DNA of 64,000 nt from Methylosinus sp. Sm6 (GTDB lineage Bacteria > Pseudomonadota > Alphaproteobacteria > Rhizobiales > Beijerinckiaceae), in the NCBI RefSeq assembly GCF_019802345.1, contig NZ_JAINDZ010000007.1, positions 62,001 through 126,000 of the forward strand. The letters are read 5' to 3'. A program made the position numbers and the translations under genes. The notes below the pieces were generated by a model. It saw only the letters and a list, made by a program, of their open reading frames with translations. It had not been told where the DNA came from and searched no databases. Every line of letters begins with the position of its first letter. Within the stretch, counting starts at the first letter, position 1. This document shows, piece by piece, positions 46,995-54,869 of this stretch.

Positions 46995-47037
46995 CTTGCA
47001 ATCCGAGTGTCTGGCCGCGCTTCCACGCCCGCGATTC

Positions 47038-48507
47038 TCAGCCGCGCCGCGTGCGCAGGCTGCCGTAGCAATAATAGAAGGCGAGGCCGATCGCCATCCA
47101 GACGAAGAGACGGATCCAGGTCTCGATCGGCAGGGCGGCCATCAGGCCGAAGCAGGAGAAAATGCCGATGATCGGCACCACCGGAATGCCCGGCGCGCGG
47201 AACGGCCGGTGCAGATCCGGGCTCTTGCGGCGCAGATATATCACCGCGCCGCAGACGAGGGCGAAGGCCGAGAGCGTGCCGATCGACACCATCTCGCCGA
47301 GAATGGCGATCGGAAACAGGCCGGCGGCGATCGCCACCAGGACGCCGACGACCATCTGGCTGATCGCGGGCGTGCCCCAGCTTCGGTGCAGCCGGGCGAA
47401 GATCGGCGGCAGCAAGCCGTCATGCGCCATCGAGTAGAAGACGCGGGTCTGGCCGAACAACAGAGCCAAGATCACAGTGGTGAGGCCGGCGAGGGCGCCG
47501 ATCTTGACGATCCAGGCCATCCAGGACGCGCCGGTCGCATCCATCGCCACGGCGATCGGATCCGGCACATTCAACGTCGTGTAAGATACGACGCCGGTCG
47601 CGACGGCGGCGACGGCGATGAACAATATCGTGCAGATGAGGAGCGAGCCGATGATGCCGACCGGCACGTCGCGCTGCGGGAGCTTGGCCTCCTGCGCCGC
47701 GGTCGAGACGGCGTCGAAGCCGATGTAGGAGAAGAAGACGATGGAGGCGCCGCGCAGCACGCCGCTCCAGCCGAAATGACCGAATTCTCCGGTGTTCTCG
47801 GGCACGAAGGGCGTCCAATGCGCCATGTCGACATGGAAGGCGCCGAAGCCGATGACGATCAGCACCACCGCCAGCTTCACGAGCACGATGAAATTGTTGA
47901 ATTGCGAGGATTCGCGCGTGCCGCGCGCCAGCAGCGCGGAGAGCGCCAGCACGACGAGCGCGGCCGGGACGTTGAAATAGCCGCCGCCGCCGGCATGGCC
48001 CGGATCGGCGAACATGGCCGTCGTCCATTGCGGCGGCAGAACGATTCCCAATCCATTCAGCACGCGGTTGAAATAGCCGGCCCAGCCGACGGCGACCGTG
48101 GCGGCGCCGAGCCCATATTCGAGCACGAGGTCCCAGCCGATGATCCAGGCGAAGAGCTCGCCGAGCGTGGCGTAAGTATAGGTATAGGCGCTGCCGGCGA
48201 CGGGAATGAGCGCCGCGAGCTCCGCATAGCACAAGGCGACGAAGGCGCAGGCGAGGCCGGCGAGCGCGAAGGAGAGCGCGACGCCCGGGCCCGCGGAATT
48301 GGCGGCCACAGTGCCGGTCAGCACGAATATGCCGGCGCCGATGATCCCGCCGATGCCGAGCGCGGTGAGCGAGACGGGACCGAGCGCGCGCGCGAATTTG
48401 ACGCCCTCGCCACGATCGTGCTCGGCGAGGATTTGCTCGACCGACTTGCGGGCGAAGAAATGCCGCCTCGGCGTCTTGGCGCCGGTCGTCGTTTTTTGGA
48501 CCACCAA
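47038..48507 (-). CDS. APC-family amino-acid permease (cationic amino-acid transporter type)
   Basis: 489 residues with about 12 transmembrane helices. Seen: [20 protein letters not shown], then the first helix motif [80 protein letters not shown] and [12 protein letters not shown], the pattern of YhdG/CAT-type transporters. It moves amino acids, probably cationic ones, across the inner membrane. It lies upstream of lgt in the same orientation, 44 bases away, but is not functionally linked. Confidence 0.92.
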
Positions 48508-48687
48508 ATACCCCTTCCCTGCGAGTGGCGCTCCCGGACGGGAGCGCGGCCCGAAATCGGCGGGAGATTATGGTTGCGCCGCGGAGCGGAAACAAGAGCC
48601 GGCGTCTCCGGTCTGCTCGCGCCGCCGCAAGCCCGTGCTAGAATGCCCGCCAGAGACAGTCCCGAGACCCGCTCGAGGAGACGAGAG

Positions 48688-49089
48688 ATGAAGGACGATC
48701 AATTCGCGGTGACGCGCGCCGACGAGGAATGGCGCGCCCGCCTGACGCCCGAGCAATATGCGGTGATGCGCGAGCATGGCACCGAGCGGCCCGGCAGCTG
48801 CGCCCTCAACGAGGAAAAGCGCGCCGGCGTCTTCACCTGCGCCGGATGCGATCAGCCGCTATTCGCCTCCCGCCAGAAATTCGACAGCGGCACCGGCTGG
48901 CCCAGCTTCTTCGATCCGGTCGAGGGCTCGGTCGCGACCACCGTCGACCGCAGCTATGGCATGGTCCGGACGGAAGTCCATTGCAGCCGCTGCGGTTCTC
49001 ATCTCGGCCATGTCTTTCCCGACGGCCCGCCGCCGACGGGGTTGCGCTACTGCATCAACGGCGTCGCGCTGAATTTTTTTCCGGAGTGA
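48688..49089 (+). CDS. msrB: Peptide-methionine (R)-S-oxide reductase
   Basis: 133 residues. Reduces methionine-R-sulfoxide in proteins. Seen: [19 protein letters not shown], zinc Cys pairs in [11 protein letters not shown] and [32 protein letters not shown], and the catalytic Cys in [13 protein letters not shown]. No signal peptide, so it is cytosolic. ATG 48688 follows GAGGAG at a suitable distance. It is divergent from the permease gene and single. Confidence 0.96.
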
Positions 49090-49448
49090 CGCTCGGGTGG
49101 GCGTTGTCCCATTCGTCGAGCGACCCACCCCTCCCCCGCTCGTGGGGGGCAGGGTGGGGTCCCGACCTTCCACCGGCGCCGCCCGACCCACCTCTAGAGA
49201 TAGCGGCACACCGTTCTGCTGATTCGTCGAGCCGAAAATGCTCGGCCTTTGCTGGGATTTTCGTCCCAGGCGGCGATCGTCTGGGCGCCGCCCCCGTGCT
49301 AGCCTGAACGAGTGGGGTTCGGGCAGGGTCTACAGCCCGGCTGATCGAATATGGCGGTCTCCCCATATGCGTCTCCGAGCGAAGAGGGAATGCGCAATTC
49401 CCCCTGTTTTCGGGGCGATAGACGCGTGCGCCGCGACAATAATTTCCC
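49090..49448. other. Non-coding region between msrB and the ftfL promoter
   Basis: About 360 bases. Includes small stem-loops such as CTGGGATTTTCGTCCCAG near 49253-49270. Short frames on either strand are not supported. The adjacent region to the right holds the ftfL promoter and structured leader. Confidence 0.4.
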
Positions 49449-49477
49449 TTGACGAGGAAATTCGCTTTCCGCCATAG
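49449..49477 (+). promoter_or_regulatory. Putative sigma-70 promoter of the serine-cycle cluster
   Basis: TTGACG (49449-49454) with a 17-base spacer before CCATAG (49472-49477), a reasonable -35/-10 pair for an alphaproteobacterial housekeeping promoter. If correct, transcription starts near 49485 and leaves a 5' leader of about 245 bases before ftfL. Confidence 0.4.
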
Positions 49478-49500
49478 GGGCGGCGCGGGCGAGTTTTCGA

Positions 49501-49632
49501 CCGGATGCCGCGAGGGGCGACAACGCGCCGAAGGCGCGGGACTGCATCCGGGGACAACTTGATGAAGCAATCGGAAGGTTCTAACTTCGCCGCTCGATAA
49601 CGGCGAAGACCGGGCGAGCCGTGGTCTTCGCC
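49501..49632 (+). promoter_or_regulatory. Structured 5' leader of ftfL with two mutually exclusive hairpins (riboswitch-like)
   Basis: Element 1: CCGGATGC (49501-49508) pairs with GCATCCGG (49544-49551), enclosing an inner hairpin CGCGCC-GAA-GGCGCG (49524-49538). Element 2a: CTTCGCCG (49585-49592) pairs perfectly with CGGCGAAG (49601-49608). Element 2b: GGCGAAGACC (49602-49611) pairs perfectly with GGTCTTCGCC (49623-49632). 2a and 2b share bases 49602-49608, so only one can form. This is the layout of a riboswitch or attenuator. It does not match a riboswitch consensus that I could recall (ZTP, glycine, SAM, TPP compared by eye). The ribosome binding site AGGGGAG is about 85 bases further on. 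Confidence 0.5.
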
Positions 49633-49731
49633 CCGCAGCCGTTTGCGCGTCCTCGGGCGGTCTCGCGCGGCGCGGACATAAAACTTCGAAGGGCCGAGCG
49701 AAACGCTTCGAGCGAGGGGAGAAAAATTTAA

Positions 49732-51459
49732 ATGTCCGAAACGTCCACCCCCGCCGCGAGCGGGAAAGGCAACCAGCATCTTTCTCCCAAGTCCGACATC
49801 GAGATCTCGCAAGCCGCATCGATGCGGCCGATTGTCGATGTCGCGCGCGAGAAGCTCGGCATCCCCGCCGAACATGTGTTGCCTTACGGACATTACAAGG
49901 CGAAAATCTCCCTAGATTATCTCTCCTCCCTGAAGGACCGCCCGGACGGCAAGCTCGTTCTCGTCACCGCCATCACGCCGACGCCCGCCGGCGAGGGCAA
50001 GACGACGACCACGGTCGGCCTCGGCGACGCGCTCAACCACATCGGCAAGAAGGCCATCATGTGCCTTCGCGAGCCGAGCCTCGGCCCCTGCTTCGGCGTG
50101 AAGGGCGGAGCCGCCGGCGGCGGCTATGCACAAGTCGTGCCGATGGAGGACATCAACCTTCACTTCACCGGCGACTTCCACGCCATCGGAACGGCCAATA
50201 ATCTGCTCGCCGCGCTGATCGACAATCACGTCTATTGGGGCAATGCGCTCGGCATCGACCCGCGCCGCATCTCCTGGCGCCGCGCCGTGGACATGAACGA
50301 CCGCGCATTGCGCTCGATCGTCTCCTCGCTCGGCGGCGTCGCCAACGGCTTCCCCCGCGAGGACGGGTTCGACATCACCGTCGCCTCGGAGGTGATGGCG
50401 ATCTTCTGCCTCGCCACCAGCCTCGAGGATCTGCAGCGCCGGCTCGGCGACATCATCGTCGCCCAGACGCGCGACAAGAAGAGCATCCGCGCCTCCGAGC
50501 TGAAGGCGCAGGGCTCCATGGCCGCGCTGCTGAAGGACGCGATCGCGCCGAACCTCGTGCAGACGCTCGAGAATAATCCGGCCTTCATCCATGGCGGGCC
50601 GTTTGCCAACATCGCCCATGGCTGCAACTCCGTCATCGCCACCAAGGCGGCGCTGAAGCTCGCCGATTATGTGGTGACGGAGGCCGGCTTCGGCGCCGAT
50701 CTCGGCGCGGAGAAGTTCTTCGACATCAAATGCCGCAAGGCGGGGCTCACGCCCGACGTCACCGTCATCGTCGCGACAATTCGCGCGCTGAAGATGCACG
50801 GCGGCGTCGCCAAGGACGATCTCAAGGTCGAGAATGTCGCGGCGCTGGAGAAGGGCTTCGCCAATTTGAAGCGTCACATCGCCAATGTGCAGAAGTTCGG
50901 CGTGCCGGTGATCGTCTCGGTCAACCGCTTCAGCACCGACACGCAGGCGGAGATCGAGCTGCTGCAGAAGCTGAGCCAGGCCGAGGGCGTCGATTGCGTG
51001 CTCGCCGATCATTGGGGCTCGGGCGGCGAGGGCGCGGCCGAGCTCGCGCATAAGGTCGTCGCGACGATCGAATCCAAGCCCTCGCAGTTCAAGCCGCTCT
51101 ACGCGGACGATCTGCCGCTGGTCGAGAAGGTGCGCACCATCGCGCGCGAGCTCTATGGCGCCTCCGACATCGCGCTCGATCCATCGGTGAAGACGCGCTT
51201 CGCCGAGCTGGAGAAGGAAGGCTTCGGCCATCTGCCGGTCTGCATCGCCAAGACGCAATACAGCTTCTCGACCGACGCCAACGCCAAGGGCGCGCCTTCG
51301 GGCCATGTGATCCCGGTGCGCGAGCTGCGCCTGTCGGCCGGCGCCGAATTCGTCGTCGTGATCTGCGGCGACATCATGACCATGCCCGGCCTGCCCAAGG
51401 TCCCCGCCGCCAATAATATCGAGGTCGGCGCGGACGGACGCATCGCCGGCCTGTTCTAA
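49732..51459 (+). CDS. ftfL: Formate-tetrahydrofolate ligase
   Basis: 575 residues. An ATP-dependent enzyme joining formate to tetrahydrofolate, the entry of one-carbon units into assimilation in methylotrophs. Seen: [21 protein letters not shown]-loop [60 protein letters not shown], and [20 protein letters not shown] at the end. First gene of the serine-cycle cluster, with AGGGGAG ten bases upstream of ATG 49732 and a long structured leader. FtfL, Fch and MtdA (54009-55532) together interconvert formate and methylene-tetrahydrofolate. Confidence 0.98.
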
Positions 51460-53843: not shown

Positions 53844-53985
53844 GGCGTCATGGCCGGGCTCGTCCCGGCCATCCACGCCCGAGGGCGGCGCAGCGGTCGA
53901 GACGAAGTTGAAACATATCGACAGCGCCTCGGGCGCTTCGCGCGATCTCGTGGCGTGGGTGGCAGGGACGAGCCCGGCCAGGACG
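53844..53985. repeat. Palindromic repeat between hprA and mtdA, GTCATGGCCGGGC type
   Basis: Left half GGCGTCATGGCCGGGCTCGT through ATCCACGCC (53844-53879) and right half GGCGTGGGTGGCAGGGACGA through CGGCCAGGACG (53952-53985) are imperfect inverted copies about 70 bases apart. Read as protein it gives the familiar spurious peptide MAGLVPAIHA, typical of Rhizobiales repeats. It is related to the hairpin at 11409-11453. Confidence 0.85.
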
Positions 53986-54008
53986 GACAGCCTTTCGCAG
54001 GAACTGCT

Positions 54009-54869
54009 ATGACTCAAAAGCTCCTCTTCCTTCTCGACACCGATCCGGTTCCGAGCGTGTTCGACACGGTCGTCGCCTATGACGGCGGCGCGGATCATGT
54101 GATCGGCTACGCCAATGTGACGCCGGAAAATGTCGGCGCGCTGGTCGACGGCGCGATCTACACGCGCGGGCCGAAGGAGAAGCAGTTCACCGCGCTGTTC
54201 GTCGGCGGCGGCGACATGGTGGCGGGCGAGGCGCTGTTCAAAGCGGTGCGCAAGCGCTTCTTCGCCAACTTCCGCGTCTCGGTGATGCTCGACTCCAATG
54301 GCTCGAACACCACCGCCGCCGCGGGCGTCGCTCTGCTGGCGAAAGCCAAGCCGCTCGCCGGCAAGAAGGCGATCGTGCTCGCCGGCACCGGCCCCGTCGG
54401 CCTGCGCGCCGCCGCCTTCCTGCATTCGGAGGGCGCGGAAGTCGCCATCACCTCCCGCAGCAAGGCGCGCGCCGACGCCGCCGCCAAGGCGCTGCAGGAT
54501 CGCTTCGGCTTCACGCCCACGGCGATCGAGGCGACGGACAACGCCGCCCGCGCCTCGGCGGTGAAGGGAACGCATGTGGTGTTCGCGGCCGGCGCCATCG
54601 GCGTGCAGCTGCTGGAAGAAAAGGATTGGCAGAACGATCCGACCATCGAGCTGATCGCCGATGTGAACGCGCAGCCGCCGCTCGGAATCGGCGGCGTCGA
54701 GGCGACCGACAAGGCCAAGGAGCGTCACGGCAAGATCGTCATCGGCGCGCTCGGCGTCGGCGGATTGAAGCTGAAGCTGCATCGCGCCTGCATCGGCCAG
54801 CTGTTCGAAGCCTCGGACAAGGCGCTCGACGCCGAAGAGATCTACGCCCAGGCCAAGGCCAACGCCTGA
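54009..54869 (+). CDS. mtdA: NADP-dependent methylene-tetrahydrofolate/methanopterin dehydrogenase
   Basis: 286 residues. Oxidises or reduces methylene-tetrahydrofolate to methenyl-tetrahydrofolate with NADP; in methylotrophs it also accepts tetrahydromethanopterin. Seen: KLLFLLDTDPVPSVFDTVVA, YTRGPKEKQFTALFVGGGDM, LDSNGSNTTAAAGVALL, NADP-loop IVLAGTGPVGLRAAAFLHSE, SRSKARA (Arg/Ser for NADP phosphate), and IGALGVGGLKLKLHRACIGQ. The length matches MtdA of Methylorubrum (288). ATG 54009 is used; the open frame upstream reads through a repeat. Followed by fchA after 33 bases. Confidence 0.97.
   Translation: MTQKLLFLLDTDPVPSVFDTVVAYDGGADHVIGYANVTPENVGALVDGAIYTRGPKEKQFTALFVGGGDMVAGEALFKAVRKRFFANFRVSVMLDSNGSNTTAAAGVALLAKAKPLAGKKAIVLAGTGPVGLRAAAFLHSEGAEVAITSRSKARADAAAKALQDRFGFTPTAIEATDNAARASAVKGTHVVFAAGAIGVQLLEEKDWQNDPTIELIADVNAQPPLGIGGVEATDKAKERHGKIVIGALGVGGLKLKLHRACIGQLFEASDKALDAEEIYAQAKANA

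Follow-up and report, generated by a model that had tools for sequence, protein, structure and literature searches.

Does the leader in front of the serine-cycle cluster of Methylosinus sp. Sm6 carry a ligand-controlled RNA, or something simpler? The leader runs for about 247 nt from a predicted transcription start to ftfL, the first gene of the cluster. The first-pass annotation, made from one sequence, saw in it a closed multi-stem element and two hairpins that exclude each other, and read them as a switch, with a lack of covariation among relatives as the observation that would count against it. Searches of the open PMC library, which lacks most subscription papers, listed none that describes a structured RNA in the leader of ftfL. 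The window is the whole stretch of DNA analysed, 64 kb long.

The locus and the leaders compared

The open reading frame at 49732-51459 (plus strand, ATG at 49732) is ftfL, which encodes formate--tetrahydrofolate ligase (NCBIfam NF010030, E 1.4e-279, above the family cut-off). The best NCBIfam matches of the frames downstream, several of them under the cut-off, are an aminotransferase, a 2-hydroxyacid dehydrogenase, a methenyl-H4F cyclohydrolase, malate-CoA ligase beta, an alpha subunit, a PEP carboxylase and a CitE/malyl-CoA-lyase-type protein. Ten frames were scanned, and the one at 53850-54869 has no NCBIfam match. The serine-cycle context assigned at first pass is correct. Upstream of the leader, a frame of 697 aa with a TTG start (46996-49089) has an MsrB domain at residues 574-696 only, and no NCBIfam match at E 1e-10 outside these residues.

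In a comparison that may omit records very close to the source genome, the ftfL protein has its best named match in M. sporium DSM 17706 (97% identity); the M. rosea SV97 protein is 83% identical, and the group called Methylocystis here takes its name from that record. The gene was found in 10/10 Methylosinus and 37/39 Methylocystis genomes, which gave 47 leaders; upstream regions were also taken for ftfL in other genera of the family (24 genes). The alignments named below are A1 (34 distinct leaders), A3 (the 10 Methylosinus leaders) and A6 (14 sequences from the two closest groups, including four Methylocystis). The covariance model R1 was built from Methylosinus alone and R2 from A6.

A DNA search of 199 family genomes with 49449-49731 matched 24 of them. 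One genome (G146) aligns along the entire leader at 87%, five other Methylosinus align at 49558-49728 only (68-71%) and two at short ends only. The first 109 bases of the query, which include the multi-stem element, have no BLAST alignment beyond the nearest relative, except for a 43-base promoter piece in G105.

Table 1. Features of the ftfL leader and of the DNA upstream of it (window coordinates).
Feature	Position	Strand	Description
GG-rich direct repeat	about 49311-49328		degenerate in the window; immediately precedes the site 49336-49353
Conserved DNA site CCCGGCT-N2-TCGAATATG	49336..49353	+	upstream of P1; putative regulator-binding site
Promoter P1	49449..49478	+	TTGACG 49449-49454, 18-nt spacer, CATAGG 49473-49478; predicted start ~49485
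Multi-stem element	49501..49551	+	folds in the window (-27.3 kcal/mol, z -3.4, inflated like all z-scores of single elements, whose ends were chosen on helices); comparison gives no support
Conserved 33-nt block CTTGATG-N17-TAnnnT-CGC	49558..49590	+	P2-like motif and/or RNA helix H0
P2 motif	TTGATG 49559-49564, TAACTT 49582-49587	+	predicted start ~49594
Possible 12-codon ORF MKQSEGSNFAAR	49562..49600	+	ATG in 9/10 Methylosinus
Helix H0	49563..49589	+	49563-49567 (UGAAG) with 49585-49589 (CUUCG)
8-bp alternative helix	49585-49592/49601-49608	+	-12.5 kcal/mol
Hairpin H1	49602..49632	+	49602-49611 with 49623-49632, 10 bp

Promoter P1 and the site upstream of it

The TTGACG promoter and the leader of some 245 bases described at first pass are both present. 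CTTGACG lies at most 420 nt upstream of ftfL in all 47 Methylosinus and Methylocystis leaders (10 + 37), and is found in 1/24 leaders of the other genera (L169). CATAGG, CATAGC or CATACG follows 17-18 nt later in 44 of the 45 leaders listed; L035 carries CATTAG. P1 has the conserved -35 and -10 elements of a sigma-70 promoter at a spacing within 16-18, with a weak fit of the -10 to TATAHT. The start map of Methylosinus sporium 5 (PMC12403871) gives in its text a -35 consensus TYGMSV, a -10 consensus TATAHT and an RpoD spacer of predominantly 17. P1 resembles these RpoD promoters in its TTGACG, which satisfies TYGMSV, and in its spacer of 17-18; it differs in its -10, where CATAGG or CATAGC agrees with TATAHT at 3/6 positions, and in the conserved site upstream, which suggests dependence on an activator. 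Sites with a -10 of this quality are frequent (16.6 per kb on the plus strand). An inverted repeat within the P1 spacer seemed covarying at first sight; by eye, it is lost in many of the sequences listed and was rejected.

RNA-seq in M. trichosporium OB3b placed the starts of key serine-cycle genes, and the operon-start figure of that study (Supplementary Figure S4A) plots the region from -250 to -190 of ftfL (PMC3615186). The predicted P1 start, at -247 in the window and -246 in the closest relative (L033), falls inside the plotted region. In the 47 leaders compared P1 is conserved; that it is used in Methylosinus sp. Sm6 is most likely, and the leader RNA is probably transcribed.

A second conserved feature lies farther upstream. 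The site CCCGGCT-N2-TCGAATATG was recognised in 42/47 leaders (at most 5 mismatches; a count made without a shuffled control) and is unmatched in L116, L117, L125, L126 and L131; its exact copy in the genome of Sm6 is found at this locus only. Its distance from CTTGACG is -112 in 9/10 Methylosinus (the match in the tenth, L035, is poor and lies at -150); in the 32 Methylocystis with a match it is -101 to -103. The spacing differs between the two genera by 9-11 bp, which is about one turn of the DNA helix. Such a shift suggests that initiation would be controlled by a DNA-binding activator that stays on the same face of the helix. As judged from the leaders the site is conserved, and it is possibly the binding site of this putative activator. 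Many relatives also have GG-TAGG direct repeats about 11 bp apart ahead of the site (region 49311-49353).

Hairpin H1 and the block ahead of it

H1 is predicted to fold with -20.9 kcal/mol in the window. In the ten Methylosinus leaders (A3), 90% of its cells are paired and three of its pairs show compensatory changes, a number reached by 2/500 shuffles; slid controls give 0-1. The pair 49605:49629 is broken in 8/10 of these leaders. Simulation along the tree from the paired state, based on as few as 13 substitutions in the Methylosinus columns, gives p=0.0063 for compensatory pairs and p=0.020 for cells paired. Similarly, on A6, where nine pairs were tested (the pair broken in most sequences was excluded) and the substitutions, 28, are again few, the values are p=0.0040 and p=0.012. 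Compensatory changes in H1 thus exceed the controls. The all-pairs covariation test, with a tree-simulated null, finds no significant pair, the lowest E values in two alignments being 0.87 and 3.3.

The model built from Methylosinus alone finds the element once, at ftfL, in 9/9 Methylosinus genomes, with a single weak extra match (E 0.16, in G078). When 19 Methylocystis leaders that bear the conserved block were given to it, R1 found the element at the same position in four (E 1.7e-5 in L126, 2.1e-5 in L131, 1.1e-3 in L116 and 9.9e-3 in L117) and missed 15/19 at E 0.01; L142 is a weak match (E 0.37). On Methylocystis leaders outside its training set, R2 gives weak matches only (L142, E 0.0068; L130, 0.018; L143, 0.26; L146, 0.51). 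Over 298 family genomes, with strict filters, R2 has 13 strong matches (10 Methylosinus and 3 Methylocystis), all of which are training sequences at ftfL. Eight weaker ones (E 8.4e-6 to 0.038) lie elsewhere, in 8 genomes of 6 genera. Four of these (L192, L193, L198 and L195) were inspected as model alignments; L192 and L193 both overlap long open frames and neither is at an ftfL gene. We judge the eight to be chance matches in GC-rich DNA. The one least comfortably ascribed to chance is L192:1501-1601 (G084), from a different genus, with E 8.4e-6 away from ftfL.

Local folding shows dips near H1 in the six groups tested, with a best mean z of -1.2 to -2.3 (offsets -10, 0 and +10); group C has a deeper dip at +50 (z -2.8) than at H1 (-1.2). 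In group B of Methylocystis H1 is kept and hardly varies, and it gives no covariation signal (p=0.58). A hairpin H1b, from about 49632 on, has no significant signal. A further folding dip, before the ribosome-binding site, is seen in Methylocystis groups A, B and D and in the "lost" clade; group C and the pair of sequences that includes the window do not show it. The group-B hairpin at that place is weakly supported, with p 0.038 in cells paired and 0.16 in compensatory pairs. In L130, a member of group B, a hairpin lies about 19-38 nt before the ATG of ftfL, directly ahead of the ribosome-binding site.

H1 is best explained as a leader RNA hairpin under selection for pairing, that is, a lineage-specific 5'UTR element. 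Bacterial mRNAs carry stabilising or processing hairpins in their 5'-UTR, as in the ompA leader of E. coli. H1 is like these in being a simple leader hairpin that keeps its pairing as the sequence changes. It differs in lying inside the P1 transcript, except if P2 is in use, and an effect on stability is a proposal in its case.

Just ahead of H1 lies the block 49558-49590, which aligns without gaps across the 34 distinct leaders of A1. Five of its columns are invariant there (C3, T4, T5, G9 and T32) and eight more are conserved at 90% or above. CTTGATG-N17-TAnnnTCGC has one match in the window, an exact one; at up to 2 mismatches, 70/100 shuffles match as well. By eye, the block is absent from 10/37 Methylocystis leaders (L118, L119, L120, L121, L124, L127, L128, L129, L132 and L145), all of which keep CTTGACG and the upstream DNA site (at most 5 mismatches). 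Eight of the ten were run through R1 and R2 and have no match at the element's place; R1 matches L121, L124 and L127 weakly elsewhere in these loci (E 0.088 to 3.3), R2 none of them. The block may act as a second promoter, or as an RNA helix, or in both ways. A LysR-type dyad was also considered for it and rejected, as no dyad is conserved across groups by eye.

As an RNA helix, the block would form H0, which RNAalifold proposed on A6. All five pairs are formed in 14/14 sequences, and H0 is the only ungapped 5-bp helix in A6 with every cell paired. Its pair 49567:49585 is A-U in eight sequences, C-G in four and G-C in two. Simulation of this helix, chosen post hoc and with few substitutions behind it (8 on A6, 3 in the Methylosinus columns), gives, for cells paired, p=0.0027 on A6 and 0.052 on the 10 Methylosinus alone; the corresponding values for compensatory pairs are 0.059 and 0.14. 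In its register, H0 is not formed in Methylocystis groups B, C and D (C and D together are 5 sequences). In group B a helix of 4-7 bp in another register (H0') is possible in 14/15 sequences, with no significant signal.

As a second promoter, P2, the block would start transcription at about 49594 and H1 would be the 5'-terminal hairpin of the P2 transcript. In that case the long P1 leader would be incidental, and RNA started at P2 would not contain 49585-49592 for pairing. The spacing of 17, which is also the predominant RpoD spacing in the M. sporium text (PMC12403871), holds in all groups except L144/L147 although the spacer sequence diverges, CTT and T32 are invariant and A28 is conserved at 90% or above, and H1 begins about 8 nt past the predicted start. 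Retention of the promoter-like positions in groups C and D, where H0 is gone, speaks for P2. The joint change at 49567 and 49585 is explained by H0 but not by a promoter. The -10 of P2 is also poor: TAACTT in the window and TAGTTT in M. sporium fit TATAHT at 4/6 positions and the Methylocystis sequences at fewer (partly by eye). The pattern TTGnnG-N17-TAnnnT is found in 26/34 distinct leaders and broken in 8, all of them Methylocystis, which have lost the first T of the -10; six of these also lack the G of TTG. Finally, the predicted P2 start (-138 in the window, -137 in L033) is outside the -250 to -190 region plotted for M. trichosporium, which still leaves room for a second start. We regard transcription from P2 as a doubtful explanation of the block.

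Could the pairing signal be chance in GC-rich DNA, the leader being plain promoter and UTR sequence? The all-pairs result would fit this, as would the lack of significant signal in H1b, H0' and the H1 of group B and the few independent substitutions behind the tests of H1 and H0. Moreover, the leader folds no better than shuffles: the whole leader has a z of -1.24, with 23/200 shuffles folding as well, and the region 49556-49640 a z of -0.89, with 33/200. RNAalifold gives no structure on alignments of 34, 37 and 40 sequences across both genera; we think that this is because the stems fail to align by sequence at such divergence. Against chance, H1 had been named beforehand from one sequence and its compensatory changes were shown afterwards, and R1 finds the element at the same place across genera. 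Chance is unlikely to account for the signal.

A switch, a leader peptide or a plain mRNA element

A broader regulatory reading takes H0 and H1 (49558-49640) as a methanotroph-specific cis-regulatory RNA of about 80 nt, present in Methylosinus and part of Methylocystis, whose input would be either a serine-cycle or folate metabolite or a short leader peptide being translated, and which would tune the whole serine-cycle operon. We consider it quite improbable.

Its ligand-controlled form, an RNA for folate, glycine or a C1 metabolite with H0 and H1 in the aptamer and the 8-bp helix as the other state, appears very unlikely. It can draw on the compensatory changes of H1, on H0, which is fully paired in all 14 sequences, and on their position in a leader that is probably transcribed and precedes the first pathway gene. 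H0, H1 and the 8-bp helix share strands, so that alternation is sterically possible, and 87.3% of the cells of the 8-bp helix are paired. This last value is however reached by 435/500 shuffles; the helix has 0 compensatory changes and a simulation p=0.60 for cells paired, and in L027 it is broken at 3/8 pairs; in that leader H1 keeps two of its own pairs by compensatory change. The predicted stability of H1 moreover exceeds that of the 8-bp helix by about 8 kcal/mol, and switching would therefore require strong help. The two hairpins noticed at first pass are indeed mutually exclusive in the window, but two mutually exclusive conserved helices were not found, and selection for alternation between them is not supported.

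The multi-stem element, for its part, folds in the window as had been described, but the relatives do not support it. Of its cells 55.9% are paired (40.8-48.8% in slid controls), with 3 compensatory pairs (0-4 in the controls). Three of five measures come out slightly above column shuffles (22, 42 and 11 of 500 as high, the 22 being for cells paired and the 11 for the covariation score), and the tree simulation gives p=0.82 for cells paired. The lack of covariation that would count against the switch is thus what is seen for the 8-bp helix and the multi-stem element, but not for H1, with its compensatory changes.

Searches for known RNAs point the same way. Rfam covariance models have 0 matches at the gathering score in the 64 kb, in agreement with the by-eye verdict of the first-pass annotation that no known riboswitch class is matched, and up to E 10 the region 49300-49850 gives two noise matches only. 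The riboswitch classes ZTP, glycine, THF and SAM, which are Rfam 15 families, share with this locus the gene context only (one-carbon, folate and glycine metabolism); none of these classes is among the hits that 49300-49850 gives up to E 10. The Methylosinus-1 RNA (RF03108) is of the same genus by name, but its match is noise: it scores 12.3 bits where the gathering score is 145.1 (E 1.7) and skips the middle of the model. Strong matches to our own models lie at ftfL only. In M. sporium 5, dRNA-seq and Term-seq revealed 62 transcript ends within 5'UTRs, and the text of that study names only cobalamin and glycine riboswitches (PMC12403871).

With its competing hairpin devoid of compensatory changes and its multi-stem no better than slid or simulated controls, a leader whose block is missing in 10/37 Methylocystis and in which no long invariant core was found across the two genera does not support the ligand-controlled switch first proposed. 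The conserved promoter, the probably transcribed leader and the conserved hairpin H1 of that reading are supported; the switch is not.

Control by a leader peptide, in which translation of the 12-codon ORF 49562-49600 would govern H0/H1 pairing, is barely credible: the ATG kept in 9/10 Methylosinus (CTG in L032), the stop codon kept in 10/10, the one in-frame 3-nt deletion (L035), the GGGGA 7 nt before the ATG in the window, the serine and glycine codons and a stop that adjoins H1 are set against 4 synonymous and 13 nonsynonymous codon steps, no better than the other frames (2:14 and 6:8), a peptide that is similar in Methylosinus only and has no match in Methylocystis, and the lack of a clear ribosome-binding site by eye in the M. 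sporium group. The ORF was accordingly rejected as a conserved coding sequence or attenuator leader peptide.

An activator-controlled promoter followed by a lineage-specific 5'UTR hairpin is the explanation that we prefer for the leader of this serine-cycle operon, and we give it about an even chance. Transcription would most likely start at P1 (TTGACG-N18-CATAGG), near 49485, and its initiation would be regulated by a putative DNA-binding activator on the site 49336-49353. The leader RNA would carry H1, probably with the small helix H0 ahead of it, and both would most likely act as a plain, ligand-free mRNA element, in stability, processing or ribosome access.

Carbon assimilation in type II methanotrophs runs through the serine cycle, which is also a target for methane bioconversion. 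The comparison leaves one RNA hairpin, H1, that can be tested, together with a defined set of relatives. Should H1 regulate the operon, it could serve as a control part; otherwise the leader is an ordinary UTR. The focus moves from a riboswitch to the conserved DNA site 49336-49353, whose spacing points to an activator.
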